Source: Muricea muricata
Taxonomy: Eukaryota; Cnidaria; Anthozoa; Malacalcyonacea; Plexauridae
Length of the DNA: 64,000 bases
Assembly (NCBI GenBank): GCA_963855995.1
Contig: OY979717.1
Span: 37,157,497 to 37,221,496, forward strand
Direction of reading: 5' to 3'
A program made the translations under genes and the position numbers. Shown piece by piece: positions 4,919 to 55,900 of this stretch (positions are counted from its first letter, which is position 1; each line of letters begins with the position of its first letter). The notes under the pieces are model-generated. The model saw nothing but the letters and a program-made list of their open reading frames with translations. It did no database searches and was not told where the DNA came from.

Positions 4919-7900
4919 GTGTGATTTATTGAGAACAATTTTCAGTAACTTATAGCATTTGAAGTAACATTTGTCTGGCCGCTAGCAATGATTCGGTATC
5001 GTTTGCTCAACTCAACCTAGACCCTATATAAAATCTTTTCTCCGGCCTATTCTAAAATAGCTTTATTACTTTTGTCCGATCATTTAGGGGAACCGAGTAT
5101 GGATTTTAGACAACAAGGAATGGTTCCCCTCAGTAGTGGAAATAGTTCAAGACGGCAAAGTGACATTTCGAACCGAATATGGCAAGGTGTGTATATAAAA
5201 TGTATATACGACTGTGTAGTATTTTAAGTGTCAATTAGAACGCAAGTGTCATTTTACATTTCAGCTCTCATGCTATCATTGTTATGGGGATAAAACGTGC
5301 TTGCTCATATTTGTACCTCCTACTTAACGTGCTATATAATTTCTTGGGCCCCGAACGAATTTTTTCTTTTTGCGTGTGGAGCAAAAGAATTAAATAAAAC
5401 GATATGCCTGATCGTGTCGGAAGAGCCCTTAACAGGTGGTGGCCTTTTGTGTTTACGTTTTGAAATTGTATTTGCACGTTTTGTTTTCACAATGAGCACG
5501 TTGACTGAAGGGAATGCACTTCCGCGTATTAAATAAAGCAAGTTCATTATTGGCCTCTCGTAGTATTGCTGGGCTTTCCTTGAGCAGTTTGAGGTAGTGA
5601 CATCATGTAGAGTATAACTGGAATTTTATTTTAGAGAAAATGGGTTATTATCGTGAAGGTGTCACTAGAGCTGTGTCCATTCACGGACATATTGACATTT
5701 TCAAAATTTACATCAGGAAATATTTGGGAGTGGTTAGGCAAATAACTAAATAACTAAATACACATGCTCTGAGCTTTCATTGATACTGATTTTCATGCCA
5801 GAATATTAAGATGATATTACATAGAATTGTCTTTGTAGGTAGAGTAAAAAAAAAATAAAGATTCAGGGCAATTGAATAGCAAAGTACTTGCAGCAGACAT
5901 GTTAGGCATATAAATGTTTTACCTTTAGTATGTACTGTTTAGACTTGCACCTTTTTTGCCTCAGCACTGCCCAAAGACATTTAGGGTCCCACAAGGGGGG
6001 AACTTTTGGTCTTGAGAGCCTCAAAGCTTATTTATGAACTGGTGCACAGAAAATATTAAATGTTAACTGGCCTCCTCCTGAGAACTTTTAAAATTAATTT
6101 ATAGAAATCTAGGAATTTATTTCATTTGGCCCAACGTTGGTTTTGCTGTCTCTGGGACTCCAGCAAAATTGCAAAATTTTCTCAGAAAAATAAAGAGTCC
6201 TTCCCCTAACAGACTATGTCATAATTTATGATAAGGACAGAAGGTCTTGAAAGCTGTCATGGTGTGATAACATTGAAGTGCCATTCAGAATTTTGCCAAT
6301 GTCATACAAACTTATTATTTTGTAGTAAAGTGTGAGGTTAGTACTGTGTACTCACTTACTAAGTTACTCACAAACTCTTTCTTCATCATTAGGTTTTATG
6401 CGTGCCCTGTGGTTGTGTTTGTACTTTTAATACCTGTGCTGTCTTATCTTGAACACTGTGTCCCAGGCTGATTTTAAATTTGCTCATATGCTCAAGTACC
6501 GTGCAAGATAAAAATCTTATAATGAGCATGACTTTGAGTGGGACTTTAGAAATTGTTATAATGTGGTCCTGCTGTGTAAATTAGTATCATTATATATTCA
6601 TTATAGTAGAAATTGGTTGTTTTCATAGTCAGTGAACTACTTTGACTGCAAATGCAAATTCAGCTGATCACAACATTTGTTGAGAATTGAGTCTACATTT
6701 TCTTTTTGAGAAAAATAACGCTTGTGCGTGACATTAGCAAAATCCCAAATGTCCTCGTAAAACTCCAAGTCTCCTACAACAACAACAAAGTGTTTTTCCA
6801 CTCTTCTTAACAAGAGGTTTTGTTACAATTCCATTGAAAATATTACCCTAGGTAGCCCAATAATTGTTGGTAAATATATTTTTTGTTCAGTAAATATGGG
6901 TATTTATTTGGAATTTATATATATTTGTGTAATGATTATTACTCATTGCTCAATTGTAAAGTCTACAATTGTATTGATTATGCATGGTCGCAGCTTGTGA
7001 TGTGTCATGTTTACATCATCTACATAATTATATTTTTCTAAGGTTGGCAAGTGAATACCTAAACTGTGCGCCTAGTCCCGAAGAAATACCAGTCTTAGGA
7101 AAATATATGCACAGTGCAATCAACACTGTTCTAGACTGAGTAATAATCATTAGACAATTAGCATACAGGTACATCTTCAAAAAGCATAAACTGTGAACTA
7201 TGAGCCTGCAAGGGATGATGCATTATTGTTTATTTAGGCCCTTATTTCAACAAATTTACCTTTGTAGCAAGTAAATTTGATTCATTACTAAAATAGTGCA
7301 ATGAATGAACGAGGAAAGTTTTTTGGTATTCTATCAAAATGCATGTATTCTAACCTCGGTGTGGTCACCACTTGCTTCAGAGCCTCAACTATCGGTATCT
7401 CAAGACTAGTCTCAGGTGATGCATGTAACTGTTGGGGTACTGTAGGTGGTAATTTAAATGTGCTTGTACCTACGGAAAATGATAGGCGTCACTGACAGCA
7501 CATATTCGCTGAAGATACTATTGGTTCAAAACTTGGGAGGGTTGCAGAAAAACTTTTAACAGAACTGGATACCACGATTTGTTCCTCTGTAGGTCAGGGA
7601 TGCATTCTTTGGTGTTCTGGGATTAGATTGCTAAATCTAAATCCAGTGACCTCCTTAAGCTTGGTGTTAATTGCAAGCCTTTGGTGCTCACTTCACGCTC
7701 TATGCAATGACGCAGACAAACTCATCCGTTCCCCTTGCTGAACAGGTGCATTGTTCAGTTGTTCATGCATTTCTTTCTCACTTCTTAGATCTAAATCGTC
7801 TAACTCCCGCTCCCTCTCTTTTTTGAAAACTTGTTCACGAACATTAACACTGGCCATAGCTTCCTCTTTCTGCATTTGAGCCTCCAACAACTCACTTTCG

Positions 7901-10900
7901 TTTTGTTAATCCACTACCATTTGCAATCAACCGTTAACCGTGACCAATCAAACGCTTTGTTTCACGTTTATTTCCGTTGACGTTTGGGCGCGTAAACGTC
8001 ATGTTTTGTAATAACAATTGTAGACGTTTGCTCACCCAAATAGTTGAAGTTTACACTAGGATATTGCGATTTACAAGATAATTCGATTTAGTAGTACAGG
8101 TGTATGATAAAAACTTTTAACAAGGATAATCTTGAACATGTAGGTACACTTCTTACTGACACAATCGAGCAAGACAGATGATCCTTATTTATACTTCGAT
8201 TCATATTTTAATATCGCAGTCAAATTCGATCTTCCTTCGTATCTGCTCCTCGTACCGGTACACGCTATACACAATATCACATTTTGTATTTTCTCTTCAC
8301 CGTCTACAGCATCTAATAATTTCTCAATTCTCATGCGTACATGTACTTACAAAAGTGTCCATACTTGGCTGCCCCGGCACAAATGTCCTCCACTATTAAA
8401 AAGGCAAACGGTAGCTACAAGCCTACTACATGTGCACTAAATAATTTTTTTCTACTGTAGATAAAATAGTTTGTTGCTTCAAAGATACTGTAAGCCCTAT
8501 TTAGGACAACAAAAAAGATCTATTCATATTAGCGCCATATGTGTATATTTTTCAACAAATACAGCAACAACAGTCAGTCAACAGTATTTGTTTTTAAATA
8601 TCATTAGGCATGCTATTCTTACCTTATAAATAAACAGCCGAGTTCGGGACAGGACGACTTTCAGTGATTTTGATTTTATTCTCAGAGTATAACCAAGGAT
8701 CAAAGTTCACTGTCTCGAGAAAATGCATCCGCCATGCACAACAGCAGTCTGCAAGGTGTGGAGGACATGGCTCACTTGGAAGACCTTCACGAGGCTGGGA
8801 TATTACATAATCTTCATGTCAGATACAAGAAGGACCAGATATATGTGAGAATACCATACCTGATGAATTTTTTATCGGCTACAGGGTGTCCCAAAAAAAA
8901 CTGGAACCATTAAGAAAATTATTATGTAATATACTTTTGCCAAATTCCATATTACTTTGAATGGAATACTGTATAAGTATGCATGTAATTATAGGTTAAT
9001 AGTTCCGGGTTTTTTGAATTAGGACACCCTGTATAGTGGTATTTTTAGAGTTATGGTGTGGCCAAACTAGGTAACGTTCTTGCTAAAACTATATTTTACT
9101 CCTTGGAAAGAAAAAATGTTTTAAAACAAACTCACAAGCTTTTTTGTTACGGAAACAATGTTTCATTGTTTGCCCTGTGTCGAATGTGTGGGATGTTTCC
9201 AGCACGAGAAACATTGACTTCCCGATTAAGCATGCGCAAAACTGCAAGTCGGCAACAAACAAAGCGTGCGAGCCAATTTTGCTCACAAAAATGTTTCCTA
9301 CCTTTAATTTGCCCACATTGTATGGGGAACATGGAGAAACATTGGGAAGAGACAATGTTTCCGCAACAGTTTTTCCTATTTCGGCCAAGGCTTTGCTAAG
9401 TGTTTTACAGTATACAGTACAGTTCTGATGAAACCTGACATCGCGCATCGAGCGCGTAACGCGTCCACGCGAGTATCGAGCGAGCGTCGAGTGTCGAGTG
9501 TTACGAGCAAGATCACTCGAAACTATCGAGTGCTTCGAGCATCGCGCGGTTATAACACGATTAGATGTCTGCATTAATTTTGTTGACATTACTCACCGTG
9601 AAGACCATTTTCCATTCCACTGTTGTCAGCTCGACTTATATTAGTATCTAGATTTATAACCTGCTGCATTCTAGTTTTGTGAAATCACGTAATATGAAGT
9701 TCTTGCGACATGATCAATTCACCCTGGACAAATTCACCTGGTGTTAAAAATGAGTTGGCGTTAAAACACTTGAGTCTGTAGCTGACGTGCTGCTCCCAAC
9801 GTACACAAGCAGACGAGAGTTTTTCCTATGTGTTTGTTTCCAGTGAGATTTTTCTTTTGATCTTTAACCCATAAGTGCATGGCAAACCCAGTCCTAATCA
9901 GTGTTGTTTCACTATCAGAGTCTTAAGAGACCGTTTGCCATGATTTCCCGTGCATCACTAACAAAGGGTAAAACAACGGTTTTTAGGGCGACTTTGCGAC
10001 GAGCTTGAGGCATTTACTTCTGCTTTGCCGCGGTGGATATCCGTGCGCTCAGAGGTTTGGCCTGCACTAGGTGGCGTGGCGTGCGGCAGCTTGTGATGAG
10101 ACTTTTCACAAACTAGCTGCATTGGCAGCGCGCTTATACCATCGTTGCCAACACCGAAAACAGCCCCCCCCCCTTTTGATTGAACTAGGCCCCACCGTTG
10201 ATTAAAATCGGCAGCTAAAAATACTGGGCAACCCCCCTCTTTATGCTGTATCGCACAAAGCACATTTTCCAGCTTGTGTTTTTGCAAACCAGCTGTACGC
10301 ATAGGGGCATGGTACGCAACGCATGCTTATAATCTGGCTTATCTAAGGAAAATAATGCTGCTTTTAGGACATCTGCAAATCACTCAAATCCCTCGCGATC
10401 CTTTTCCTTAATATTTTGCCAGTCGGTGATGCGGTGCAAATGCTCGTCTACAACTTCACTGGGGTCCCCACACCTGTGACTAAGTAACTTAACTGCCTTC
10501 TGGTAGTACACAGGCTTCCCGGTAAGACAAGCACTGACTTCTCTCACTTTAGTGTTGACAGTGTTATTTAAATTGGCCAGTTTAATTGCATCAATCAGAG
10601 ACTTATTACAGTCCACAAGTGAACTAATTATGCCCCAGAAGTATGACCATTTGCTTGCACTCCTGTGACAACATGTACACTTGATTTCCGGTTTAAATTA
10701 ATTAAGTTGATATCACGTGACGTTATGGCGTGATCTTTTGGACTTTGAGTTATGGGACGAGGAGAAATTTGATCGGAGTTATATTCTGAGAATTTTGTAT
10801 TATGAAATAAAAACCATTTTATACTAGAAACGGAAACTTGAGACATGGTGTCAGGAGTGGGATTCCAAACTGCGCGATTCATAATATGGGAAATTACCGT

Positions 10901-13900
10901 TTTACTATTATTGTCTCGTAGCAAACAAACTTCCAGATTGTTCGAATAATAGTCTACGCATACTAGGTAGTTCTTGCCTTTGAAGTAAAATAAATCCATG
11001 CTAACTTTATGCCATTGTTCCGAGGGGGCTTTGTGGTTTATCAGGGGCTGACGTTAAAGAGACGACCGGTTTTCGATACATGCGCTGCAATTTGATACCA
11101 ATTCAGTTAGCTCCGCGTTTATTCCAGGCCAGTAGTGCAGAACATAATTTGTCGGGCACGCGCCCTGCATCTCTCGATCCCTGGGTGTCCGTGGTGTAAC
11201 TTGGTTTTCATTTCTGGACGAAAAGTAATATAGTAAATGGTATCACGAGGCGTTCTCCTTTGAAGATCAAATTTTCAATGATAGTTAATTCTGATTTGAA
11301 TTGAAAGTGAAGCCCTACTTCCAGCGGAATTTCTTTCTTGTTGTCTGGCCATCCATTCAAATAAACTCTTTAACCTCTTTTAACACACCATCTGTTGCGG
11401 TGAAAGTACGTATTTCTTGCAACTAGTTTTTAGAAACTTGCAGGTTGCTCATCAGAAGATGAACTTGATAGTCGAGCATTGAGCTTGACGTATATTTTAG
11501 GCTTGCTCGTGACAAGGCGTCAGCTGTTGGAATGTTCGTTCCAGGTGTGAATTGTAACTCAATGTCGTATTTTTGCAGGTGCAATAACATGCGCTGGATA
11601 CGTGCTGGTGCTTTATTAATGATGCTTTGTGGGTTGATGTGTCCCACACACTTAATCTTTTTAACTCCAAAAACGCATTTGACGCGATTGAGCTTCAAAC
11701 CGCATGACTTTATTCTATCAAGGACTAGTTTTAATCTATTATCATGCTGTTCCTTTCCATCTCTCCATATTATTATATCATCTTGTATGTGTGCTGCTCC
11801 TTCTAAACCATTTAGAAGTTCTGAAATCCGTTTGCTAAATATTTCACTGACACAATGCACGCAAAAGGGCAGTCGTTTGAACTTGTATCGCCCAAACGGT
11901 GTGTTGAATGCAAGCAGATCAAATGAGCGCTCATCTAATTTCATCTGCCAGTAACTGGCACTGACATTTAATTTGCTAAAAAGTTTGGCGCCAGCCATTC
12001 GTCATGTTATTTATTTACTGGTTGGCATTTGGGAAAATTCACGTTTAATTGTTCGGTTTAAATCCGTGGGATCTAATCAACAACCACTATACTATTTACC
12101 CAATCTGTGGGTTTCTCAACTTTTTCAATGATCCCCAACGATGTCATTCGATCTAATTCAGAATTAAGTTTGACAACACATTTTCCACATTGCCGTTTAT
12201 AAGCTGGATATGATCTGCCTTGAAAATGCTCTTCTCCATAATATGTACAGTTTTTGATCATTGCTCTTGGTCGCGTTTCATTAGTACTTCCTTGTGCACT
12301 TTTGTTGACCGCATCAACCAGTGATTCAGACGTTTTAGTATCTCCTTTCATTTCCTTCGATTGCAGTTTTACTTCCTCAGCGGCCCGACAATTTTTTTAA
12401 TAGCTTGCTCTAGCGACGAGTCCGGTTCCCTTAGCAATCGTTCTTGCACTTCTTTGTCATGCACTCCAATTACAATTTTATCTCGAATTAAACTCGATTT
12501 GAGGTCGCCAAAACTACAATGCTCTGCCCGAGATTTAAGCTCTGTTACGTATTCATCTGTTGATTGCTCATCCCTTTGGTTATACGAAAAATTCGATGTC
12601 TCATGTATGTTATATTTTTCTTCAGGGACATGTATGAATCAAATTTTTCGAGCACTTTATCAAGCTTCATTTCATCGCCCTCAGACTCAAATGTAAACGT
12701 GTTATATATATCTCTTGCTCGCTCACCTACTGCCGTTAACAATCGGGATATTTTCACTTCGTCGCTTAATTTTTCATCTGACTCGGTCGTGCCCGTGGCT
12801 TATTTAGAAACCGTAGACGGTCGGTAGCATCTTTAATGGTCGGTAGCATCATTGATCTCGTTCCCAGATTCCTCTCGTCTCGATTAGACGAAGTTTTATT
12901 ATAAATTGGAAATTGTTGTGACGGTTTTCAGCTAGCTCGTTGTTAACTCAGTCGTTTAGGCGTATGATGTCTAATAGAATAGGCAGAAGTTCGAATTCCA
13001 CCCGAGGCTTTTTTATTTTTAAAGTTCGTCAAACTTTTTTTCTTATATTATTTCCCTTTTATACGATTTTTGTAAGGGTTAGGTTTAGGGTTTGGGTCAG
13101 GGATTGGATTATTTAAAATTTTAAAAAGAAGGATCTATTAGTTTTATCAGACATATAGGCTTGAGATCGAGATCAATGATGCTACCGACCATTAAAAATG
13201 CTACCGACCGTCTACGGTTTCTAAATTTGCGTCGCCGTGAGATAAAACTTGAATTCTCGTTTCTATTTTCTCCAATTTTCGCTCAAATTACCCGTAAATT
13301 TCAATTCTTTCAGTGGTGCAAACTTTCCAACCATCACTTTATGATTATTATTATGATACTACACTCCTGACACCATCGAATACTGGAATATTTACCCCTG
13401 TAAGACTACTAGGATGACTGTGTTCTTTGCCTCCTGCGGGGGTTTCACTTGCTCCTTGAGACGACTGTTCCTCAGTATTTATAGAGGAACTTTGGAGTTA
13501 ATAATTCCGTGTTCTCATAGACATCTTAATCCAAGCCCAAACCCTAATCCTAACCAGCGTTTTATTTGTCATGTTTTTGATTAGATTTAGGGCTTGGATT
13601 AAAAATTAATTTCGTGTACTGAGAACACGGAATTAGTGCCACTTTTGGGCTCTGTTTGGCTCGATTCTATCAAATAATCAGCTACTTCGCCTAAGGCTTG
13701 ATTATAATTCAAATTATAATTTACGCAACAACTGTACCGACTTTGTGCTAAAGAAACCAAAAACTAATTTTATGAAGAAAAACATTAGTTTACTTATTCT
13801 CCCGCTTCAGTTTGAAACAAATTACCAAAAAGTGCAAAAACAAAAGGAATCGGCCGATTGGTGAAGTAAAATTCAAGTCTTGACCGTCAATGAGCTCTTA

Positions 13901-16900: not shown

Positions 16901-19900
16901 TAGGAACAAGCACTGACTCTTAAAGCCAATTTTATTAAGCTGTAAGCTATTAATAAAATGAAGTTAATGAGGAAACGTTCTGATCAGATTACGGTTTATA
17001 ATGTCTTGGTTTTGGCAAAACCAGACATGCATCCTGCATGCGGCACAATTAGGTTGTCATCATGTCAGATATACGCCAGACTCGTTCCAAGGTGCATGAT
17101 TTAGAGCATGCAAATGAGTGATGCACGTGAATAACAAATAATTCTCCTCTAGCCAATGAAAACTGTGACTTTGTCAAGCGCGAAACAATAACCAATCGCA
17201 AGCGAAGCTTAACTGAATACAAAGCGAAACGCGCACTGAATTTCATTATATTGCATTTGGGCTCGCTCAAGCCGGTACGCGGCTAAAAGTTTCAACAAAA
17301 ATCGTTTTTCGTAAAAACGCCAAACGGATTTCTAACCGCAATAATCGATCTCGATCAACGGCGGCAATAGTGATACGGAGAGTTTACGACGCCAATGTAC
17401 TGAGAGAGGACTACCTAACCATGGACCAAAGAATGCTTTAGTCTCTCGGCTACAACAGCGCGCAACCAGTTCGTCTTCGATGCCAACGGTAGATGCCGCA
17501 GGGAACGAAAATTTGCCCTCTACGTCGACATTTGCTTAACGTGACAACCCACAATCTTCGTTATTTACCGAGGACCACTTGGCGCATATAAGATATGATC
17601 AATTGTTTCTCGTAGCGTGGAAGAATCGGTAGCCGTTATAGCAACCAGTGCGGCCCGTGCCGCTGTCGAAGCCATGTCTACGAATCACGATGTCTCAACA
17701 AGGTTGTTACAACAGCCGTTCTAGACGAGATCGCGGTCAACACGTACGGCAGATTCTTGTCCAAACCCAACGTCGAGCGTCGCGTCTCAGTCCTGTAGAA
17801 GAGCTTGTATAGTGTCTCCAGCATCGTTTCAAGCATACGTGTATACTAGCTGTTGACGCAGTTTCTTCCCTGCGCTCTGGCGAGTACGGTACAGCAGATA
17901 TTGCAACAACACCAACGTCTGAAGGGGATTGTGGCACCTAGTTCAGTGTCGCATCTGATATTACATTTATCATGATGTGCGCTAGCTGTATATGGTATCG
18001 TAAGTATTCAGGGCATTCCAAAATTTTTGTTGCATATTTTGTTTAAAATCTAATCAAAATGCACACAATTTGTCATTTGTGGTAGAACACGAGCATAAAT
18101 AAGGCTTGCCAAGAGAGATTATTGTGTAATCTTACCTGATCTAATCAGCTGAATATATTTTAATGCGTTTTAGACATGCGATACAAATATGATTGCTTTC
18201 CTAGATGAGATATCTTGAGAAATATTGAGCACAAGATCTGTATTTGACACATATCAAGAAATTCTATCCCATTATTAAGACCAGTGGAAAAAAAAAAATT
18301 TTTTCTGCTTTCACAAAGGAAAATCTATTTCTTCAAACTATACTTAAATTTCAATGTTTACTTCCAAAATTAATATTAATTCTAGCGGCATTCGGCATCT
18401 TATTGGTATGGTAATGGTAATGGTTTTAATAACATATGACAATAGCTATATACAGCTAAACTATCACATGTTTACAAGTAATATTAGAACAATAATTACC
18501 GTTCCGAACTTATATATATATATATTTACATTTTCAATTTTAAATTAGAGTTAAATTTTGACACAGTTTATTTATTTCAAATTTGTTTCTGCTAAAGTTG
18601 CATAACCAAACACTATACTGACTCGTGAGGCATATAGCGGCTTGCACAGTGAGTTAAGCATCGCTAGCTGTAAGTCTGCGCGCGCCGCTCGGAATTGCAA
18701 AGTACAAGCTTCAGTTTATCGATTAAGGCGCAGTCGATTTGTAAAACTAACGATAAAAGTTTCCAAAAATATCGAAAATGAAGACCACAGCAAAACAATG
18801 TTTTGAATATGCCAAGTTAATTTTATTCTTGCCATAAAACACAAGCATGCTGAACTGATTAAATAGTGATGAACAAATATTTCAAAAAGGCTAGAATGGT
18901 CAGCTCTGTTTTCCGTATTACCAGTGGTTTCATCATTAAGTTGTAATATAGGAGCTTTATGGGGAAGCTGCTGGATTTGTCTGGCCCCATCCAGGTTTCC
19001 TGTATCCAGGTTTTTCCCGGCCACCCTGATGATCCAGCTGTAATAAAACCAGTGGTAATGCCTAAACAGCAAGTCTTACCATTTCCTAGCAAAAGCTGTC
19101 TTCTATATGACTACAGCTGTTGTGGGAGTTGGTTGTTCGTCTATGGGGAATACACATTCTGTGTATTTGTGGGGATGAAACGCTCCTGATTGTCACGTTC
19201 AAGCCCATAGACTCACGCTTATTTATTGTAATGATAGATCAGTTGAATCTGAAGAACTGTCCAACTGTGTATAAAGTTGGTCTGATAGGTATTGAGAGTA
19301 TAGCTATCTCCTTGGTATGCGCGTGTGCGCATATTTAACGTTCTGTCGCGTGTGCGCTTAACGGAAGGAACTGTGTGTACAGTTGCATAGCTATCTCCTT
19401 TGATATATAACAATCTAATGAACAATCTAGTATAATGTAACATGAGTCTTTGGGATGACGTTTTTGACCATATTTTGTAACCAAGACCAAGAGTGTTTCA
19501 CCCCGAAACCCCTTCTCCCACAAAAGCTTGCGTGTGTGTATTTCTTATGTTATCGCGCATCATTGCGAGCCTTGACCACAGAACAGCTTTAATCATTAAA
19601 GCCAATTTTATTAAGCTGTAAGCTATTAATAAAATGAAGTTAATGAGGAAACGTTCTGATCAGATTACGGTTTATAATGTCTTGGTTTTGGCAAAACCAG
19701 ACATGCATCCTGCATGCGGCACAATTAGGTTGTCATCATGTCAGATATACGCCAGACTCGTTCCAAGGTGCATGATTTAGAGCATGCAAATGAGTGATGC
19801 ACGTGAATAACAAATAATTCTCCTCTAGCCAATGAAAACTGTGACTTTGTCAAGCGCGAAACAATAACCAATCGCAAGCGAAGCTTAACTGAATACAAAG

Positions 19901-22900
19901 CGAAACGCGCACTGAATTTCATTATATTGCATTTGGGCTCGCTCAAGCCGGTACGCGGCTAAAAGTTTCAACAAAAATCGTTTTTCCCGCCCACCCAACC
20001 CATGCACATATCCTAAATGAGTTTCACAAACCATGGTGTATATGTGGCTTGAAAGACGACAACTACGCTCAATAGATGTTCAAGCACCGAAGGGTAACGT
20101 ACGAACTATCAACACTGGCTCATAACCTTAGCACAAATCACTACAGGACTTCATGGTTTATAGACGACCTTGGCTTCATCTACAGGGTCGGAATGGACGT
20201 ACGCGATTAACGCGTCACTAGCTATAACTTGAATGTATACATATGTTACAATGTAATATTTAAAGAATTATACAAGTTTGGGTTCGGGGATGAAACGCTC
20301 CTGATTGTCACGTTCAAGCCCATAGACTCACGCTTATTTATTGTAATGATAGATCAGTTGAATCTGAAGAACTGTCCAACTGTGTATAAAGTTGGTCTGA
20401 TAGGTATTGAGAGTATAGCTATCTCCTTGGTATGCGCGTGTGCGCATATTTAACGTTCTGTCGCGTGTGCGCTTAACGGAAGGAACTGTGTGTACAGTTG
20501 CATAGCTATCTCCTTTGATATATAACAATCTAATGAACAATCTAGTATAATGTAACATGAGTCTTTGGGATGACGTTTTTGACCATATTTTGTAACCAAG
20601 ACCAAGAGTGTTTCACCCCGAAACCCCTTCTCCCACAAAAGCTTGCGTGTGTGTATTTCTTATGTTATCGCGCATCATTGCGAGCCTTGACCACAGAACA
20701 GCTTTAATCATTAATTCTGACTACAACTAATTTTCATTTACTGAGTATCTCAAAAAAGTACTCTGGTACTTTTTTAATAATTTTAAACGAGGGTAATTTA
20801 TGGATAATATGGGTAGAAATTGGCCAGAAGCTCATTAATATGCAAATTTGTGGCTAACTACGGCGAAAGGAGATTGGGGAAATGAGAATCGAGCCGAAAC
20901 CTATAGTCGCCGGGCACAGTGCCCCAGCGACTAATAACCCACAAACTAGTACTAGTGAAGCTATTGCATCACTTGCATTACTTAGAGGGGGGTCGAACTT
21001 AAATTTTGATATATTACAATTATTTTTTACTTAAACTTTTAAAATTCACGGAGATATTGATGTTCAAAATCGGTGATATGTTTTTGAATGTTTCGAAGGT
21101 AGCGAAAATTGGCTTATCAAATATTAATCGAGCTGTGCTCTGGCTAAAGTCATATCAGGCTAACTTATACTTCAATAAATTGTTGCAAATGTTTGCTGGA
21201 AACAAGGGTGTTTTGAATGTCACGTGGACACTGCGATTTAGCATTCCACTACAGTTAACTATTAGAATTGTATAGAATACAATTGTAATGCGGATTAATG
21301 ACATTCAAAAGTGAAAGCAGTGCACCAACTTCTACTGTTACAATGTATTGTATATCGTATGTGTACTGTAGCAGACCTAATATTACAAGCTCTTAAACTA
21401 TTTCTGTGAAATACATTTATTGTATCAAGCTGTGCGCATTATATAAGAAATATCTAATGCTGGAATTTTTTAAACGGTAATGCTATAGCCAGCTTTTTGA
21501 AAATACAAGAAGACATCAAGGATCACAATCAGTATAGCATATCAACTCCCGAGACCTGTCAATATGCGAACTTTTTCTGTGGAGATACTTTTAGCAGCAA
21601 ATTTTTAATATATCACACGACCAGCAACCACAAATTTGAGAAGCGAGCTTTGCAACTTTTGCATGCGTTGTGGCAGTATCCGTCATTTAGATTGAATGAT
21701 CCATGAGCCTTTGTACTAAAAGAGACGCTATTCCAAACGATTTTTGATAACTCGTTTCATAACCAAGTATTTGTCAAGTTTCATTTATTTACTGTAATTA
21801 GTACGTTTTTCGGTTGAGGAAAGTTTGTTTAATTTACATGTTTTAAACACGTACACAAATATGCTATTGATTTGCATCCCTGACGTCTAATAAACTACAA
21901 CTATAATACACGAAAATCTATATTGAATTAGACTTCCTACTATCTACAAGTTATTTCAGTTCAATAGCTTCACTTGTTGGGGCTTGGGAAGTTATTAGGA
22001 ATCAAACTGGAGTACTTTTTTGGACACGTAGTACTTTATCTACTTCTTTATACTTCTACTTCCAATTCTCATTTGTCGTATGAAAGCATTGGCTGTAAGT
22101 TTTTCGAAGATTCCAGGGCTATCAGATTAAGTGTTTTTAGATGAAGAAGTTGCTAAAAAGTGTTATTATTTCCCGTGCATAACAACAATGCCATACAACA
22201 GTACCCCAACAGTATAATTTATTAAATTGTTTGGTGATATTTTCGTCGTTATAGGAAGCGATGAGGGTGATGAGATTTAAAGAAGAAAGTATATCCGATG
22301 TTTTGCATGTTTTAGCTGGTATTCTTAGCTTGGGAAACGCCACTTTTATTGCTGGAAACGGGGCTCAGATTAACGAGAAATTTGGTACGTTTTACAAAAA
22401 GAGATAATAATTAATAATTACTTAAATAATGCATTATCTGCCTACTCACGACAGAATGTACCAGCGACATAGCTGTTAGCTTGCTTGTAATCTTTTAGTA
22501 TTGTTTTACTTTGCCATTCTACACGTTTGCCTCGAACAATTTCTGGTCGTCAGTTGACCTGTGAGGTTATCAACGGCTGAAAATGTAGTAAAGCAGTTAA
22601 GTCTCTACCAGAGAAATAATACTCCATTTGGGCGGGCATTCTAATCCGTAGCGTAGCCAGCCCGACGATTTCGTCCTGCTAATTCAAATTTTTTAGAGTT
22701 CAATGACTGTTGAAACAATCAATTTCTTGAAAAAAATGGATAGTAAGAGTTGATGTACCGAGAACACAAGGGATGTAACCGATCTATTTAATTTTTGAAG
22801 AGGTTTCCTAACAATATTTACATTCGTATTGGGAGCATTTAGCCAAGGTACTGTGTATATATATGTATATACACAATCCTTGAAAGAGAGATCGTGAGAT

Positions 22901-25900
22901 TAATCCTATTTAACAATTTCCTCATACACAACTGTTACATAGTTACATTACATTTTCCTCTCTGCAATGTCTTGATTTTGATGAGGGTGAAAAATCGAGT
23001 ACTCGGAGAAAATCCCTGGAAGCACGTACAGGAGAGATCACTACGTCTTGTACACCACAAGACAAGTATAGATACAGATATCTCAGCAGCTAGATTCTGT
23101 TGCAAGACTTGATGCTCTCGAACCGATTTGATTTTGTAGTTTAGTTGGTAGAGCAAAGGTCGAGCATTCGATTCCCACAGAGTTGAAGCAGTTTTTTCAA
23201 TTTGCACTCAGCTCCCATCACCGTACATAATACATAACTGGCCAATGTTTCTCTTCATCATTTAGTGCTCGAAGACATTGCAGCCTTACTGCAAGTAGAT
23301 ATTTACGATCTGGAAGATGTACTCACGCAAAAGTCAATGGTTTTAAGAGGAGAAGAGATCAAGTCGCCATTATCTGTGGCACAGGTACGAAACTCCAATC
23401 TTATCATTTTCATTGAGGTTTGAAAGCCAAAATATGACACGTTCTGGTTTTATATTGCTCACTACATAACTTTAGCACAGTTACGTAAAGGTATAAAAAA
23501 CTAGTTTCATACATTATTATTAAGAAATCTGGTAAAGATATCTAAAATTAATGCAACTTAGAATCCCGTTCGAGAAAACGATTATTTGTTTGTAATAGAC
23601 AGTGCTAAGCTGGCACGGAAGTAGTTGATCAATAATTACATTTACCTATTTACGATTTTATGGTTTTGGCATAGACTTTGTTAAGAAGTCATGACTTTCA
23701 CCAATTTGATGCAACCAGACAGACCAAACAATAATTTGTTAATTGCTGTGACAAAATACACCCACCCCTGCCCAATGTTATTTACGTTTCGATAATAAGG
23801 ACAGATATTAAGAAAATAGTGGGGTCATAAGGCAATGTATTTCTCTTTTGCTTATCCATAAAAACCTTTGAAGTAATTGTAATATCGGTCGTTAGATTTT
23901 TCTAGCCTGCTGAGTTTCGGAAATATTGTAGGCCAAATGACACTAGCCGCCCGCCATCTTGCTTCATAATAAGGTCTATTTCAATGACGTCACAACAGGG
24001 CTGACTGTATAAAACTTACATGATTCAAGGTTTCCATGGTGTAATCAAATATTTCAAACAATTTGTGGTTTTCACCATGTATTTATTCATTTATTCTGAG
24101 CTTTCCATCCGTAAGCCCGGGTCATTTTCAGTGAAAGTATAATAAATCGTCAACAATACGAATATAGCAGTCAAATTTGCTTGCGTGCGTAATTACGCGC
24201 AACGATTTCCAACTGTTCTTAAACAATTCTTAATGACTTTTGGTAATTATAATTTAAGTTGAACAATTTTAATATTGAGGTAAAGATTAATGAAGAAGGC
24301 ACGTCCAAATGTTTTTAAAGGCTTTCCTTCTTTTGGTATTGTTCGATATTTTGAGACTTGAATCGACCTTCTTGTTTTCAGTGCAAAATATTTGTCCACT
24401 GGAGCCAGAAGAGCAGACTTGTCCCAATTTATAAAACTTACCTTGATAACACATGGCAAATTTACGTAAGATATGTATGCATAAAAATCATACACCATGG
24501 CGATCACTAGTATCTTCATCCTTCAGTATTTCAGCATGTGATCAAAATTCGTATTCGTATTGATAAACCAAAATAAAAATATATTGCCATCTCCCTTAAA
24601 CTTCAATGCGGCTTAACTGTACGAATTAAGATTTGCCGTTACCCAACACAAGAAATAACTTGCACTTTTCGTATTATATGGTGTGAAATCGCTTATATTT
24701 AGCTGTCGCGTACTGCAGTTGCCTTTTCCCTTGTAGGTTTTTATGTACAGATCATGGACAAAACATTAATTTTAACACTGATCGTACAATAATTTCTGTT
24801 TCTCAGGCCGAAGATTCCAGAGACGCATTGTCAATGGCGTTATATGCATGCACCTTCAGATGGATTATACAACGAATAAACGCTCGCATCAAAGGGAACA
24901 GTAATTACGCGTCTGTTGGAATTCTTGATATATTCGGTTTTGAAAATTTTGAGGTGGGTTTCGCGACAACTTTCGACTGCATATCAATCTGGTGCATTGC
25001 TAATTTTACAAAGACTCGTTGGGAAATTCACTACATGTACTTCATAGTTTATGCAGTCTCCATTAATAAACCAGTTTACGACGGTGTCATTTGATTTGTT
25101 TTATAACAAACTTAATTTTGTAAAATTGTTGAAGGAACTTTTCTGAAGTGATAGAACACTGTCTCTGAAGTGATTGTCACTGGCCAGTCACTATAGCTTT
25201 TTGCATTTTGCTGGGGTTTTTTTATACAGTAATAAATTTGAACTGAATTTTTAAATCGTTTAGTTAATTTTTATTTGTAAACACCTGAAAATTTGTACTA
25301 AAACAATTACCCGCCGCGCTCGGTGATTCGAAGCCTGTATTCACTTCGGCTCAGTGGTCTAGTTTAATTGGTTGATTATGGTGAAGTGATATTGAATAGA
25401 AAGTCCCATTTGCTAAGCGTGCATTTGAACACACACTATTGCATTCTCTGGAATGCAATACGTTTTCATAACTACTACAATACTTTTTTTCCTGTTGCAC
25501 TCTTTTGAAAGGCAATAGCCTATTTTGGCAATAATGTATGAAACAAATGATGAATTTTTTTATTCGTAAAACGGTAAGAAATGAAGTGTTCCATCCCACC
25601 GAATGAAACTACACTCTCATTTGTATAAGAAAGATTCTGCGAACAGGCGCTACAGTATACATTTTGATGTATTTTAGACCAATCGATTCGAACAGTTTAA
25701 CATCAACTATGCTAATGAGAAACTGCAACAGTTCTTTAACAAGCATATATTTTCCCTGGAGCAGCATGAATACAACAGGTAAAGCTAAACGTTACCATGC
25801 ATTTTCAATTTTAGTTTATAGGAATCAGTGACCCTAGCAGCCTAATACCTTGAATAACGTTTGCTACAAGAGTCGCTAATGTTATTAAGAACCTATATAA

Positions 25901-31900: not shown

Positions 31901-34900
31901 ATGATCAACAGTGTGTGCAAATCAGACTCTTGTTTCCTGTGCGTTACTCTTATGCATTGTCTTCTATCAACTGTCCGTGAAGGGGCACGACTTAGTTTCC
32001 TTTAAGTAAACTTCTTCCAAGTAATTATAATAGTATGTGGTCTTTATTCATTTTATATAATTATAGTAATTACAAAGTATATAAATACGTAGTATATCAT
32101 ACATAAAAATACCTCCAATTACCTATATTACAATTGTAAGAAATGTTACTAGACTGTCATTTTGCAACAGAAATATACAGTCTTTTACGAAGCAAATAAT
32201 GTCCTGGTCGAAATGATGATTCCTTATTCTACAACCTTAGGGAGGTCAATCTGTCTATGATATGTTGACTGTGTACCTTTTTTTTTAGTTACAAAGTGTT
32301 GCTGAGAGGGAAGCCGGTCAGCGGCGATCCAAGACAAGATGGTTCTCTCTTGCTGGACGAGATTGAACCGACCAGGAAAAAGTGGAAACTGGGAAAGACA
32401 AAGGTGCAATATAATTCATTTTCTATTTCTTTAATAGAACTTATAAATGCGAGTTTTCTTGCTTTATTTTAGTCGTACTGTCGTAGTCTAACTCGAAACA
32501 ATATATGTATACTATGATAACTCGTCTTAAGAATAGACACACTTGTGAAAGCACAATTAGACGGTCCAAAGCAACTTTGATGGCCGGTAAAGTTACTGTC
32601 AAATTTCAAAAAATTAAAAAGCCACGTGTTTGTTTAGAAGCGCCGGTATTTCGATGCGTTTTCGCATGCTGTTCGCCCTAATGCGTTCAAATATATAGGC
32701 TTACAAATAATTTTTTATTGGACCATGCCCAAGAGGAAGTGTGCAAACGGGACTTCAAGTCCCATTCAAGAAACTCTCCCGTTTTCAATAAAATTTACAA
32801 TATTTACACAAGCATGCAAATTGCTAGATTGAAATCTATAATTTTAGAATAGGCTTTTTAGGGGGGGGGAGGGGTTTAAAGGGGTTTTTCATACATTATC
32901 ACTTCGAATTTCTTGGTTGAATTATCAAATATTTTTCAACAAGCTCTCAGCCAAATTCCGAGATAGAGTTGAATTATAATGTACAAGCTGAGAAGGCTCA
33001 TTGAGATGCACACAATTGAATTTGCGTGGTGCTACTGGTAACCTCTTGTCTCTTCGACATGACATATGAAGAACACCAAATAGTCCGTGTTACGAAAGGA
33101 ATTGGAAGTGCAATACATTACACCCGTTTTCGAAACTACGCGACCCTTCACGAAAAATAATCTTCGCCCAAAACAAATCTTTTTCGTGAATGATTTTCAA
33201 ACTTAAAAAATAACAGTTTATATGATTTATCATCAAATTAAACTGCATATCATAAACACTTGCGGTAGACTATATAGCGCTATTGTTATCATTCCAGTTT
33301 TGATATAATATTGTAAAAAATATCACAGAAATTTCTTGAAATATATTCTGAGCAATCTTATATGAAGCACAAAAAGGATATAAATCGATAACAAATCACT
33401 GAACTTAAAGTTTTAAACAATTATAACTTCGCGATAAACTTGAAATTTCACTCGGGATATTTCTGACCTGGTCGCGTAATTTTGAAAACGGGAGCAACTG
33501 AAACAATCAAGCAATGTGCATGTGCGAAATTTAAGCTTATATCTATGGCATGAACAACTTCGGTGTAGTGACCAAGTGCATTCAGGATGAAGTATATTAA
33601 GTATCAGAGAAGGGTGTCCGCAATTTCGAATACGTCCATGACTGAAGCTATAAGTTTACACGTGCAATTTTTTCCATGCACCGGCAACGCAACGGGTCGA
33701 ATTTCATTCGTTTCTGGCGCGAGTCTTATTTTCATAAGTTAATCTCTTCGGCAACTTAAAGTCCAATCATTTTAACTTTCAGCAACGATTGCAGTAAATG
33801 TCATATTACACGTGTTACTTGCTCAAACCATCAGCCAGTGACATTCGAGAACTCAAATAGTGCAGGCTAAAAACTGTTCTTCGCGAAGTGTGTCGCGTGT
33901 TTTTTGCGTTTTCACAACATTATTTCAGACATCACAAAAAGAGTGTTCGCAGTCGCTGGGAAAATAATGCCTGAAGATTTGAATTTTTAATCTCACTCTA
34001 CCAAAAGAATCCTGAATCAATCTCATCCACAATACAGAAACCATGTCGTAACCAGAGTTTGCCAGGCGGAAAACGGATTGTTATAATAAATGTTGAAGCC
34101 CAACATATAACTTTTAGTAAAGCCATCAAAGCATATACTATTATAGGATCTTAAAATAATTTTATTTGTAACGTTTCGTCTTTAACTTAAGATGTCTCCA
34201 GACTAACAATATAGAGTTACATTTTGACATGGCGTCATATTACAAAGCGTTAAGGATAATGAAGGATAAGAGAGTAAAGAATAGTACACAATAGGACGAT
34301 AGAAACAGGGAGACAGAGCAAAGACGAAAAAAGTGAATTATAGAAGGTTAAGCGGAATTGAGCTGGAATTAAGAGGGTTTGAGCTTGGATATAAAAAGGC
34401 TTTCGTGAATCATTAATTCACAAGTGTCGGATCAAGAGGAGAGAGTTTCGAAATCGTCAAAGTTGGCAGAGTGGCTGGTAGAATTTAAATGAGAGAAAAT
34501 GCTAGACATGACTGGACTGGATGTCGGTTTTCCTGTTATGGATGAAATTGCCAAGTGTTCTGATACTCTGGTGTGTAAATGGCGCGAGGTTTGACAGACA
34601 TACGACGCGGAACAGTTTTCAAGCTTTCATAGCTGGAACAGAGGATAAAAAATCGATGTAATAAACATGAAACTAAAGAGCGCTTGTAGGCAAGAGGAAT
34701 GAAGCTGTGGAAATTAGTGAAAAGACCAGTGAAAGTGGGTTTACGATAAACAGAGGTAGAAAATGTAAAAGAGACGTTAGGATGTTGACGTTTAAGATAG
34801 TTAGCAACGTAACGTCGATACAGGAGAAGTATGCAGACACGAGTTTTGATGGATAGACGTGGAGAGAAGAGGGCCAAGAAGACTACCCATAGCCACGCCA

Positions 34901-37900
34901 TCAATTTGTTGATAAATACGATCATTAAAAGTAAAGTGGAAGTTTTTGGCAGACAGAGATAGACATCTGATAAACTGTGAGTGATCAAAGCCTTCGAAGT
35001 ACACGGAGTTGCAGCGTCTTGTTCGTCGCTTCCTTAACAATATCGAATATACCGAACCCAAAGCCACTGTTCACATAGTTCCTAAGAGAATTGTCTATTT
35101 CTGCCTTCCCTACACTAGCTCACACTCTCTTCAAATTGGCAATCAAATCACCCGACATTACAATGCTGCTAATCTACATCTCAACATTCGATTTGTCTTT
35201 CGCTCCTCTACACGCGTCTCCTCTTTCATCCTCTTTAAGAATAAAGTCTCCAAGTTTATGAGATCTGTTGTTGTATACTTATTTAAGTGTCGATGCTGTT
35301 CCGCGTCGTAGGTGGGTCAAACCACACGGAATTTTGCACACGAGAGTATCAGAGCACTTGGGAATTTCTCCTATAATCGGAAAACCGTCATCCAGTCCAC
35401 TCTTGCCTAGCATTTTCTCTCATTCAAATTCCACCAGCCGCTCTGCCAACTTTAACGATTTCGAAATCCTCTCCTCTTGCTTCGACACTTGCGAACTAAT
35501 GATTCACGATAGCCTTCTCATATCCAAGCTCAAACCCTCTCTTAAACGTGCAGGGCAGCTCAATTCCGCTCAACCTTCTATGATTCACTGTATTTGTGTT
35601 TTTTCTGTCCCCCTATTTGTATCGTCTTTACTCTCTTATCCTTCATCATCCTTAAAGCTGTGTAAGATGACACCATGTAATTAGATAATGACTAGCTTAT
35701 GTATATAATTCTATATCATTAACATAATACGAAACTTTACAAGTAAAATTATTTTTAAATCCTAATAGTGTGGAAAGTATACAAAAAGTTATATGTTAGG
35801 CTTTAATATTTATTACAAGAAAGAGAAAAACTCCCAATAAAGGCACTTGGCCAGAAATATAACAGGCTCTTTCTTGTCTTTTTTGCGTGCTTAAGTTACG
35901 TCAGCAGATTTCCATTAAAATCCAACCAGGAATGTCATCAGGGTCTATTGCCTTAAATAGATTCAAATTAGACAAGTATATGACAACTTCTTCGGTAGCG
36001 GTGATCTCGCACAATTGGGTTGGAATTACTTGCCAAGAGATGCATGTTTCAGTGAATGTTTCACTTCAAGCTGCAGGACAAAAGACAGAACAGAAATAGT
36101 CATTGAAAAGTTCTGCCTTTTCTTTTCGGGACTTTCTTGCACGGTTGTTGAGAGTTAGTAATATCAGGATTATGAGAGCAAAGCGATGATTAAGGATTGC
36201 TTTACGGTAGCTCCAGATTATTTTGGGATTGTCTGTAAACGAGGCTTCTATCTTATCAAAATACAATGTATGTTTTTCTCCTGATCGCATACTTGACCAG
36301 GATCACGTTGTTTGAGTTCACGCCCCTAAGTTTTGTTGTCTCTATAATAATACAATAAAACTAAGGGACGTAAACGCTTGGCCTACTCATCGATAACGAC
36401 TCAATTTGAAAACGCTGTAGAAAACGAAGCCAAATAAAAAACCATCTTAGTTCCAGCTGGCGAAGATGTATCGTTTTGAAAAAGATGACGTCGCAAAGCA
36501 TGGAAAGCATAAATATAGTTATTGATCACAGGAATTATATTCTTGCTTGAAACTATCAATATTATTGCCATTTTTGTTTCCAATTGATTTCAAAACACTT
36601 TCGAAAGAGTTTTGGTTTTGTTTGCGTGGAAGATAAACTAGCCAAATTGGATGGGAGCCACAGGGAACTGTTTACACGTTTCAGATTCAATATAAACATT
36701 ATTTTTCTAGAAAATTCCATGCACTCGACATCTTGTGAAGCATCACATCAAGTATACCGTTTTCCAAATTTTTAGTGTCAAAGGACGAAAATCGCAGTGA
36801 TGACGTGGATCGATCGTAATCTATGATAAGCACATTGCCATCTGACGTTAAAAGCATTTTATATTAGTCATTAAAAAATCATTGATAAATCATCAGCAAA
36901 ACACAAAGAAAATGATAGCCGTTAAGGAGTCTTTATATGTGGAAACGCACACGTATAGACTATTGCGAAACTTTTGCCTCGATTTTCTCGGCTCATACAA
37001 CATGTTCAGCATATCGAAAATCGTTTTGTGAACAAACTGACAAGTTGCGTATAAAATACATCGTTATGCAGATCGTTTTTACTCGAAACTCGTATTTATC
37101 TGATAAAAACCTGGTAAAGCACTACTACACAACAAATAATGCTAACAACCATTAAAGATGCTACCGATGGTACACGGTTTCGAAATAAGCCAAGTTAAAG
37201 TGCCCATGACACGAAAATTTTTATGGCATAATGAGAAAGAGTATTTAAAACTGTGATACAAGCCCTTTTGTACTTTTGCGCTGCAACGTTTTGTTGATGA
37301 GATATTTCAGTTTGAATATTTTGTTTTGTCGGCTAATTACGTCACACTTTGCATAATGAGGCATCAGAAAGTAGATTACAAAGTTGTTTTCCTATAAAGA
37401 GACGACGTGCAACATTAATGGGATGCTTATGTTTGTCCTTAATCTACATATCCTTTCAATATTACGAGAATTTTGCTCATTGAAGACATAGATAACTGGT
37501 ATTCAACAGTAACTCATTATGCAAAGTGTGACGTAAATTAGCCGGCAAAACAAAAAATTCAAACTGAAATATCTCATCATGCAACAAAACGTTGCATCGC
37601 AAAAGTTGAAAAGAACTTGTGTTACAGTTTTAAATACTCTTTCACATCATGTAATAAAAGTTTTGGTGTCATGGACTCTTTAAACAAACGTCGACCTTCA
37701 ACCCCTAAAATATTTTTGCCTTGCTAAAATTTAGAATTTTCGCTAACTTGAGCTTTTGAAATTCCTCGGTTTTAATAAGTACGCGACAAAAATCAATAAC
37801 AACTGCTAGTATTAAAAATCTTCGAAAAAATCTCTCCAATATTTTAATTACGGTAGTTCTTTGTCTCAAATTATATACCTGTGAGATCAGTATGTAAAGT

Positions 37901-52900: not shown

Positions 52901-55900
52901 CTGCAAGTGGTACTGGTATTTAATTCTGATTTGTCTTCTTGCTTTCTTATTTAGCCAATGGTTTAATATCCTCAACCGAGTACACAGAGCGTCCGAGCAC
53001 GAACTTCGTGATATGAAGGAAGAGGCAGCCAACATTAAACATGCTATTGTAAGTCGTTTTTTCCAAACATCATGTGTACTATTAATCCAGAATTGTACGA
53101 GCAATATCGGATGATTGTTTGTTTATTATTACCTTGACAAAATTGTACACCTAAATGCCTCAACGCATGAAAAGCTTTTGAAGCACTTTATCCAGTTCTT
53201 GGTCTTGTGGAAGGCAATTTTCAAGTTCATCGTCATATTTTCTCTTTAAACAAAAATTTTAGAATTTTTCTTTGTATTTCATCCAGTGCTTTTTTCCTAG
53301 GTCCTCGTGTTCAGTTTTGTTTGTTGAAATACCTTTCCGCCATTCAATTTATTTTGAAAGTTATTTGTTTATGCCATACATATAAAGAGATTATTTTGAC
53401 ACTTGAAGCCTGTCAAACGCGAACAATGTAGAAACAAAATATCGAATCTCAAAACAGCTTCATGCTGTTTCTTCTTTATTTGGCCTAAATAGTGAGTCAA
53501 AGCTTTTCTTCTTTCTGTTTCATGTTTTTTTGGAAAAACTCTTCTTCTTTTTGACATAAAAGCCAAATAACCCTTTCGCGCCTTCCCAAACACGGCGGCC
53601 ATGCTTGGAGCAAAATGACAATACGATTTTCTTCACTAGTGAGAAAACCGTACAGCCAATCAAAATGCTTATACGACAATTTTTCACAAGCGAAAAAAAT
53701 CGTACGGCCAATGAAAACACTTATTCGCTTCTCCATAGTGAAAATACGATTTTTATTACATCCGATTACCTCGCGTAAATCTTTATGTGTATGGCATGAT
53801 TGTAATCAACAACGTCCAAAAATTTTTTCATGATAATAATCATCGTTGTAATGATTTGACATGAGTTGCTATATTTTCCATATTTTAGGGCACTATTGAT
53901 GTTCCACTCATCGAATCCTGTACACTTGGAGGTGTTCCAGGAAAGTAAGTTTTGTACTAGGTACAATCTGCAGTTCTCATACAGAAGATATAAAACCCAA
54001 TGTGGACAGTTGTAAACAATGATGCTGTTTTATGAAAAACTAGATTCATATTAATCTGACACTGCAGAGAACAACGAAAAATTCGTTGTCTCGAGCGGGA
54101 TTTACCAATTGAGCTATCGAGTCAACTGGGATTGGTAGCGAGTCTTATCCAATTTAAGTGCACGAAATATTTTCGTGACGACTTACGCTTGTCTTTGAGG
54201 ACGCTTGTCTTTTCGCGACGACTTAACGCTTGTCTTTTTCGTGCTCTTAAACTGGATACGACTCGCTTCCAATCCCAGTTGACTCGATAGCTCAATTGGT
54301 AGAGCGGCGGTTTAAAAACCCGAAGATGCGAGTTCGAATCCCGCTCGAGACAACGAATTTTTCGTTGTTCTCTGCAATGTCAGATTAATATGAATCTAGT
54401 TTTTCATATCTCTGAGGATGGTCCTGAAATGTTTTTTTATATCAAGGCTATTAATTCAAGATCTGAATTTTTTTCTGATTTACTGCAATGTTATATATAA
54501 CATATTGTCTCCGAGACGTGAATATACATCCACGTGTACACCCGAATATTTGAAAAATTTTCAAATTTTTTTGTATACAAAGACTTGTTTACAATTGAGT
54601 GCTTTGGTATTGTTACAACAACATGATATTTACTACTTACTGGAAACACAGGGAATATGTTTTGTGATCCTTAGATCGTAGATGGTGCACGAGATGTATG
54701 CCTCGGTTTTATTGTTGACCGGTCATCAAAAATCATGTTGCCCTCGCAACTATAGCAACGTGGACGTTAAAGTCATATTATTCCTTTATTTTCTGTTTCA
54801 GACCCAATTCATTCACTATAATAACAGCAAATCGTTTACTCAGCTTCTGTACTGATACCGTGGAAGAAGCAAATAGCTGGGTCGACGGTACGTTATTAGA
54901 ACAATTTTGTAAGAAGACCTGCGCTCTACTAAAACCTTGAAGTTTATCACGGGCATGATGGTTTAATTGGACGAATGCATAATCTCCTTTTTCTTTGAGG
55001 TTTTTCTTTAAGGATGTCTGACCATTCGTATATTGGACTGTTCCATTTGTCGAATATTTTAATTTTGACAGTAAAGAACTGCTTTTCCCGTAATGTACAT
55101 GTATTTTGACTTTATAATGATTCATACGCATACTGTATATTATGCTGTCCTTGCATCGTTTCGAGTGTGTTCAATAATACAGGGTGTATAAAAAAAAAGG
55201 TAATCGAACTTTGCAGTGCTCTAGCGCGTTCATTATGCAATCTACAGAAATCATTCTTTCGCAGGCGGAAAGACCAGGCTTTTAGCTTTCGATTGCCATC
55301 ATTTTTGTGAAATTTGAAGAAAGATTGGGCAAATACGAATCAAATGAAAATAGCCGGTCGAAATCACATATTTTCACCTCTGAGCATTACTAGGGCAGCG
55401 AATAAGAAACGAAAATTTCATTAATCATTTATCTGTCGCGAGAAACAATTAACAGCACTAAAAAAATGCCAGAAGTTTACTACCTAAGCTAAAATTGGTC
55501 AATTAATTTTGTAATTTAATTCCCTAATGGATTTAAATTTCAACAGATTTTCAATAAACTCCCAACGGTGAAAATAGGCGATTTCGACCGGCTATTTTCA
55601 TTTGATTCGTATTTGCCCAATCTTTCTTCAAATTTCACAAAAATTTAATGCCAAGCTAAAAGCCTGGTCTTTCGCCTGCGGAAGAATGATTTCTGTAGAT
55701 TGTATAATGAACGCGCTAGAGCACTGCAAAGTTCGATTACCTTTTTTTTATACACCCTGTATAGAAATGGCATTTGTAACATGGCAACCATTTTTTTCCA
55801 TCATTTTGAGTGTCTTCTGTTACATACATATTGTAACAGCTAGGTGTGTCGATAGTTCAGCACCATTGTATTATTATCCATGAATCGTCATATGGAATGT

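Follow-up and report, generated by a model that had tools for sequence, protein, structure and literature searches.

Repeat layout of the element and its copies

A window of 64,000 nucleotides (nt) from Muricea muricata (assembly GCA_963855995.1, contig OY979717.1; host genome 453 Mb in 74 contigs) contains two long repeats, R1 and R2, each present twice in direct orientation around two different interiors, U1 and U2. We interpret positions 16924-20714 as one non-autonomous Ngaro-like tyrosine recombinase (YR) retrotransposon with the order A1-U1-B1-A2-U2-B2, and give this reading, including its mechanism, a probability of about 0.93. The features of this region are as follows, all on the + strand; the hyphen in a junction sequence marks the junction, and L numbers denote loci.

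16920..16923: TTAA of the left flank, host DNA outside the element; flanks vary and AGCC... is constant across copies
16924..17310: A1, the 5' A repeat (R1 without TTAA), 100% identical to 19600-19986; 25 A1 copies were collected
16929..16959, and again 19605-19635: terminal hairpin inside the 5' end (DNA folding z -3.2 and -3.6)
17311..19170: U1, non-coding interior that replaces gag, reverse transcriptase (RT) and YR; longest stop-to-stop frame about 119 amino acids (aa)
17384..17593: degenerate gag start with a SAP motif, with an internal stop and the start codon lost
19171..19599: B1, the internal B repeat ending in CATTAA, 100% identical to 20286-20714
19594..19605: B1/A2 junction CATTAA-AGCCAA, predicted copy of the circle junction, identical in tandem copies
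19600..19986: A2, the internal A repeat, identical to A1
19986..20001: C-rich tract CCCGCCCACCCAACCC closing A2, with CCCNCCC near the A boundary
19987..20285: U2, spacer of 299 base pairs (bp) separating A2 from B2, with an 83% identical homologue in L049
20286..20714: B2, the 3' B repeat, identical to B1; the right flank starts at 20715

When the window is compared with itself by blastn, the R1 copies (16920-17310 and 19596-19986) are identical at 391/391 positions and the R2 copies (19171-19599 and 20286-20714) at 429/429 positions, and no similarity is detectable between U1 (17311-19170) and U2 (19987-20285). This result bears out the sequence-only reading of this DNA, which had described identical repeats around unrelated interiors; a simple deletion, which would have left U1 and U2 homologous, is rejected, as no homology of the two is detectable. 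No inverted matches are found in the element region at E≤1e-5 in this self-comparison. The repeat arrangement is far beyond chance. The 71-nt region across the B1/A2 junction gives a DNA folding z of -4.4.

The genome matches that were scored are the best 40 of 69 candidates for R1 and the best 40 of 121 for R2. U2 is found at 35 places in the genome (35/35 candidates scored), of which 18 are at least 98% identical over the whole length, 14 are 79-86% identical and 3 are short pieces at 93-97%, and U1 gives at least 63 matched stretches (40 of 423 candidates scored). The loci read number 43 (the window, L009-L049 and L055) and were drawn from the top R1 and R2 matches; this set also includes six older U2 loci and a single one taken from the YR matches, and it covers 25 of the 35 U2 places. 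The genome search finds R1 and R2 together elsewhere, as the sequence-only reading requires. An assembly artefact, which that reading had named as a possible source of the duplication, is rejected, because the same arrangement recurs at many other loci of the genome with different flanks.

The copies occur in three forms. The tandem form R1-U1-R2-R1-U2-R2 has the long unit before the short unit in direct orientation in 12/12 tandems, ten of which are non-autonomous (window, L009-L012, L016-L018, L036, L037) and two of which have a coding interior (L047, L049); the 5' end is lost in L017, L037 and L047, and most of U1 is replaced in L011. The long-only form R1-U1-R2 is present at 16 loci, which correspond to 11 independent sites when L020, L021 and L026-L029, with their common flanks within a satellite, are counted as one; L041 is without part of R1, and L055 is long-only with a different interior. 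The short-only form R1-U2-R2 is present at 12 loci, eight of them young and four older (L044-L046 and L048), with R1 incomplete in L044 and L045. L035 and L040 are only fragments. Short-long, long-long or short-short order is not found among the 43 loci. In a family with different ends, family II, tandem and long-only copies were read, and only coordinates point to short-only copies.

Insertion sites and coding relatives

At least four clear empty sites (those of L049, L032, the L020 group and L043) contain the joined flanks uninterrupted, with 0 bp gained or lost. The empty-site repeat copy for L043, which is of the short form, is located within the window itself (55388..55616, + strand) and is 91% identical to the joined flanks with a gapless junction; an inverted repeat of the window (55177-55762) overlaps this copy. 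The empty site of L039 is weaker, with 79% identity and gaps in the left flank. Sequence around insertions was analysed at 28 independent sites, which are the 36 loci with both ends minus eight (L017, L037 and L047, in which the 5' end is lost, and L021 and L026-L029, which are located at the L020 site). At these sites, the total apparent length of target-site duplications is 20, as compared with 18.3 in shuffled data (fraction 0.38), and left and right flanks match no better than chance pairs do. An element of the long or short interspersed type (LINE/SINE) is rejected, since there is neither a duplication nor a tail.

The element ends are AGCC...CATTAA, in which TTAA represents the final four bases of R2, and the flanks vary between copies. 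The left flank ends in an exact TTAA at only 3/28 sites, so that the TTAA to the left of the window copy is a chance match and the element is not TTAA-bounded, as the sequence-only reading had supposed. The last four bases of the left flank nevertheless match TTAA at a fraction of 0.545 of positions, as compared with a maximum of 0.446 over 144 background offsets.

The sequence-only reading had taken the region as two tandem TTAA-specific cut-and-paste transposons of the piggyBac/Kolobok type, which have a TTAA target habit, with different cargos, the short one being inserted into the TTAA that the long one had duplicated. The window copy indeed has TTAA in its left flank, at its junction and at its right end. 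However, a TTAA-duplicating transposase is excluded and this explanation is refuted, because the empty sites show neither duplication nor loss, and the scarcity of TTAA at the left flanks counts against it as well. The absence of inverted matches at E≤1e-5, the same order in 12/12 tandems and the presence of RT and YR genes in a relative also argue against it and for a single element. We therefore regard two transposons as having practically no chance of being correct.

The relative L049 is complete and has the order R1-gag (409 aa)-RT/RNase H (634 aa)-YR (358 aa)-R2-R1-U2-R2, with A1 at 1349-1741, B1 at 5630-6060, A2 at 6057-6451 and B2 at 6795-7225 (reverse-complement coordinates). The L049 gag contains SAP and CCCH-like motifs, both under the curated Pfam cut-off, SAP narrowly. 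The L049 RT matches RVT_1 (E 7.8e-12), and its RNase H-type matches (E 8e-4 and 2e-3) are below the cut-off. The three open reading frames (ORFs) encode gag, RT-RNase H and YR and no DDE transposase, and no methyltransferase domain is found among their Pfam matches at E≤1. In L047, ORFs for RT-RNase H and for YR precede an older R2-R1-U2-R2. The gag remnant of U1 is 34% identical to the L049 gag over 70 columns (E 5e-6; SAP E 1.4e-6).

When the L049 YR is aligned with two other YR proteins, which are 66% and 30% identical to it, R, K, HxxR, GRW and Y are kept, and R186, K226/K229, H303, R306, W329 and Y337 are invariant in 3/3 proteins. The invariant R, K, HxxR, W and Y are presumably the catalytic positions. 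The genome contains at least 144 matched YR stretches. L052 has the full split-repeat plan with RT and YR, a 77-bp spacer and a YR of about 33% identity, and also carries a GDSL-lipase/SGNH-type ORF; L051 has the split-repeat plan in its 3' half. The junction recurs as (C/T)ATTAA-AGC.AATTT in family II and L051, and L052 deviates from it with GATAAA-GGAATT. The YR elements at L020, L021, L026-L029, L049 and L052 belong to different families and are located within one satellite of about 323 bp, and L032 is located in a 127-bp satellite. It is possible that YR elements target or tolerate satellites.

Proposed replication cycle and exchange of interiors

According to our reading, U1 and U2 are not alternative cargos; they are, respectively, the internal region and the A2-B2 spacer of one element. 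The copying and integrating enzymes are most likely supplied by a full-length relative elsewhere in the genome. An RNA spanning roughly the interior, B1, A2 and the spacer would be reverse transcribed by the RT of this relative, and A1 and B2, which are absent from this RNA, would be rebuilt from A2 and B1, respectively. In the B1-A2 stretch the two ends would already be joined, and this would allow the ends of the complementary DNA (cDNA) to meet and form a circle with the junction CATTAA-AGCC, which the YR of the relative would recombine with AT-rich DNA resembling TTAA. The flank data fit recombination of such a circle junction with a partly similar target. In L058, a further YR family, AATAAA is located directly before B2 (about 1241-1268, reverse complement), as would be predicted for an RNA that terminates close to the boundary of spacer and B2. 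In the U2 of the window, no canonical AATAAA is seen by eye.

The paired repeats change together between subfamilies. R1 differs between the window and L049 at 20/388 positions (A1-A1) and 22/390 positions (A2-A2), but within an element at only 0/391 (window) and 2/393 (L049); R2 differs at 6/428 positions in both comparisons, and at none within each element. The within-element distance of R2 is low as compared with shuffled partners, with 0/5,000 shuffles as low in 11 tandems and a fraction of 0.0002 for the nine young tandems, and that of R1 is low in eight tandems (fraction 0.018). No fixed differences between A1 and A2 are seen, only subfamily markers. The contrast between subfamilies is what the rebuilding of A1 from A2 and of B2 from B1 would give, and the signal within subfamilies is modest.

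A rolling-circle Helitron-like family, in which tandems arise by read-through at the 3' end, would also account for the lack of a target-site duplication, the AT-rich targets, the terminal hairpin and the varied interiors. However, both coding copies read with these ends, L047 and L049, carry RT-RNase H and YR, and L049 gag as well, and the joint change of A1/A2 and of B1/B2 fits split direct repeats instead. No Rep-helicase is found among the L049 ORFs, and a genome-wide search for Helitron proteins was not made. A Helitron-like origin is consequently very improbable.

Several observations weigh against the retrotransposon reading. No transcript, cDNA or circle has been observed. The right flanks at the 28 sites do not resemble AGCC. 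L049 is the one complete coding copy with these ends among the loci read, and it is a relative and not the direct parent, because its U2 is only 83% identical. Pfam gives only Phage_int_SAM_1 for the L049 YR (E 0.061), and the L047 YR matches Phage_integrase under the curated cut-off (E 8.2e-5) and has no match among PDB sequences at E≤1. No A1 is recognisable in the stretch of L051 that was read, and in L036 the final R2 is gone and an extra inverted R2 piece is present. The concerted change of R1 is not significant for the seven young tandems alone (fraction 0.14), and A1 is strictly nearest to its own A2, as compared with every other A1, in only 2/8 elements; the same strict count for B1 is 4/11, and many ties are expected at such identity.

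The lone R1-U1-R2 and R1-U2-R2 forms may have one of two origins, namely recombination of the paired repeats with each other or action of the YR at the B/A junctions. In the former case, they would be produced from the tandem by homologous recombination after insertion, like solo long terminal repeats. Near-identical direct repeats of 391 and 429 bp are available for this deletion, and recombination has been suggested for isolated AB repeats of Ngaro in an excerpt of PMC8547959. However, if only copies with an identity to the window of 98% or more in all their pieces are counted, there are 15 singles (nine independent long-only and six short-only) as against eight tandems, which would require fast recombination, and we give this origin an even chance. 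In the latter case, the YR would act at the two B/A junctions of one circle to give separate long and short circles, which would be integrated separately. The single forms end exactly at the element ends with 0-bp insertion (L032 and the L020 group for the long form, L043 for the short form), and family II also has tandem and long-only forms, with the short-only form indicated by coordinates. However, homologous recombination yields identical products and no circles have been seen, so that we hold separate circles to be plausible, though at somewhat less than even odds.

The interiors of the element were exchanged, because one set of ends carries at least four interiors and U1 is also located in an unrelated set of ends. 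U1 is present at 92-97% identity between the different ends of family II in L053, L054, L056 and L057. R1 and R2 give no match to L053 and L054 at E 1e-5, and agreement of the family I and family II ends, by eye, is limited to nine bases at the start, the ATTAA at the terminus and roughly 50 bases opening R2. L056, a non-coding member of family II, has the full split-repeat plan with an A repeat of 390 bp, a B repeat of 489 bp and a spacer of 207 bp. The interior of L053 opens at the gag ATG, which is followed by a break after 17 codons, and that of the window joins the A boundary downstream of the gag ATG, with loss of this ATG. We infer that U1 probably moved from family II ends onto the ends of the L049 family. 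In L011 the interior is a fusion of an antisense piece of a Copia-type gag-pol with the final 350 bp of U1, and in L055 it is a 271-bp 3' fragment of YR. The four interiors (the L049 gag leader, U1, and those of L011 and L055) all start from the A boundary; three share the exact starting base, and that of L055 lies about 3 bases short of it. Since A1 would be added anew in each cycle, its junction with one interior or another could fall at almost the same base. These results support the part of the sequence-only reading that proposed recent activity of a non-autonomous family, with long ends that are conserved and interior DNA that is exchanged.

A C-rich tract opens the spacer where A1 and A2 diverge, with the sequences CCCGCCCACCC in the window and CCCACCCACCCACCCC in L049, and the same position is occupied by CCCACCCACCCACC in L056 (family II) and ACCCTCCCTCCTCCCC in L052. 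CCCNCCC is located at -1, 0, 0 and +1 of the boundary in the window, L049, L056 and L052, respectively, and its background is 0.156 per kb on the + strand of the window. The tract is thus present at the boundary in 3/3 families for which both A1 and A2 were read (I, II and L052). A similar tract is located at position 6051 of L051, and a C-rich stretch is located about 344 bp into A2 of L058, of which the 3' part only was read; the A boundary is unproven in both. We infer that the C-rich tract may mark the site at which the 5' repeat is added again during reverse transcription. The association was noticed post hoc. Tentatively, and with somewhat more doubt than belief, we propose that the A repeat is a detachable 5' end and that the C-rich tract is a landing site or stop for strand transfer, by which A1 is joined anew to whichever 5' end the cDNA has attained.

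Neighbouring features, known elements and implications

The window contains further features outside the element. Pentanucleotide arrays at 62288-63030 (ACTGC, about 90 copies; CTCTA, about 46) produce spurious long ORFs. A tRNA-Phe(AAA)-like gene is located in an inverted repeat at 54031-54408, the arms of which are 94-99% identical, and this region may be a tRNA-derived fold-back repeat. Retroelement pieces are present at 10628-12001 on the - strand (RVT_1 E 4.6e-14; integrase core E 0.0012, below the cut-off). A myosin head match at 24687-25094 on the + strand (E 3.9e-12) is probably an exon of a myosin gene. Long inverted repeats at 34084-35815 (79%) and 55177-55762 (93%) are perhaps fold-back elements.

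As far as excerpts of the cited sources go, the plan A1-internal-B1-A2-B2 without target-site duplication is the standard description of split-direct-repeat elements of the DIRS order (PMC8969392), Ngaro is characterised by the same plan and by the lack of a methyltransferase (PMC4157794, PMC9210276), and isolated AB repeats are known for Ngaro (PMC8547959). Elements of the DIRS group, among them PAT, have a putative methyltransferase domain (PMC4157794), and mention is made of an amphioxus Ngaro-like element with an unusual arrangement of its split repeats (PMC2632668). Circular intermediates have been considered both for DIRS-1 (PMC5633606) and for DIRS1-like elements (PMC3266345), and SIRE of Trypanosoma cruzi consists of A2, about 30 bp of exclusive sequence and B2 of VIPER (PMC6681497).

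The element is similar to Ngaro in having split direct repeats downstream of YR, RT/RNase H and no target-site duplication, and in that no methyltransferase was found, and its placement as Ngaro-like is based on structure. It differs from Ngaro in that the window copy is non-coding, the A2-B2 spacer is 299 bp long, the interior is common to unrelated ends and the long half occurs alone. Its short form R1-U2-R2 has the A2-spacer-B2 plan of SIRE/VIPER. However, its spacer is 299 bp, and a long non-autonomous form A1-U1-B1 and a tandem also exist. PAT shares split direct repeats, RT and YR with it, but no methyltransferase is found in L049. TTAA at the ends of the window copy is a likeness to piggyBac/Kolobok, but there is no TTAA duplication and the relative encodes RT and YR, so that the earlier assignment to these transposons does not hold.

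The architecture is therefore already known. What is newer is the mosaic of interiors, the occurrence of the long form alone and the tract at the boundary, for which the excerpts of the open-licence literature searched contain no precedent. This literature likewise gave no description of non-autonomous Ngaro/DIRS elements, and no C-rich, quadruplex or polypurine tracts with Ngaro or DIRS among the matches listed; both are weak evidence of absence.

To our knowledge, the restoration of ends by split direct repeats in YR retrotransposons has been modelled, not shown. The M. muricata genome provides several such families, the young non-autonomous copies of which take three forms, together with a common interior under two sets of ends and a C-rich tract at the boundary, and from this combination follow predictions that can be tested for the ends of the RNA, for template switching and for the resolution of circles. 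Annotators should also be aware that a split-direct-repeat element can mimic two tandem DNA transposons. If the A repeat is in fact detachable, this would account for the start of differing interiors no more than about 3 bases from one A boundary and for the presence of U1 between the ends of two families, and split-direct-repeat elements would be modular donors of ends.

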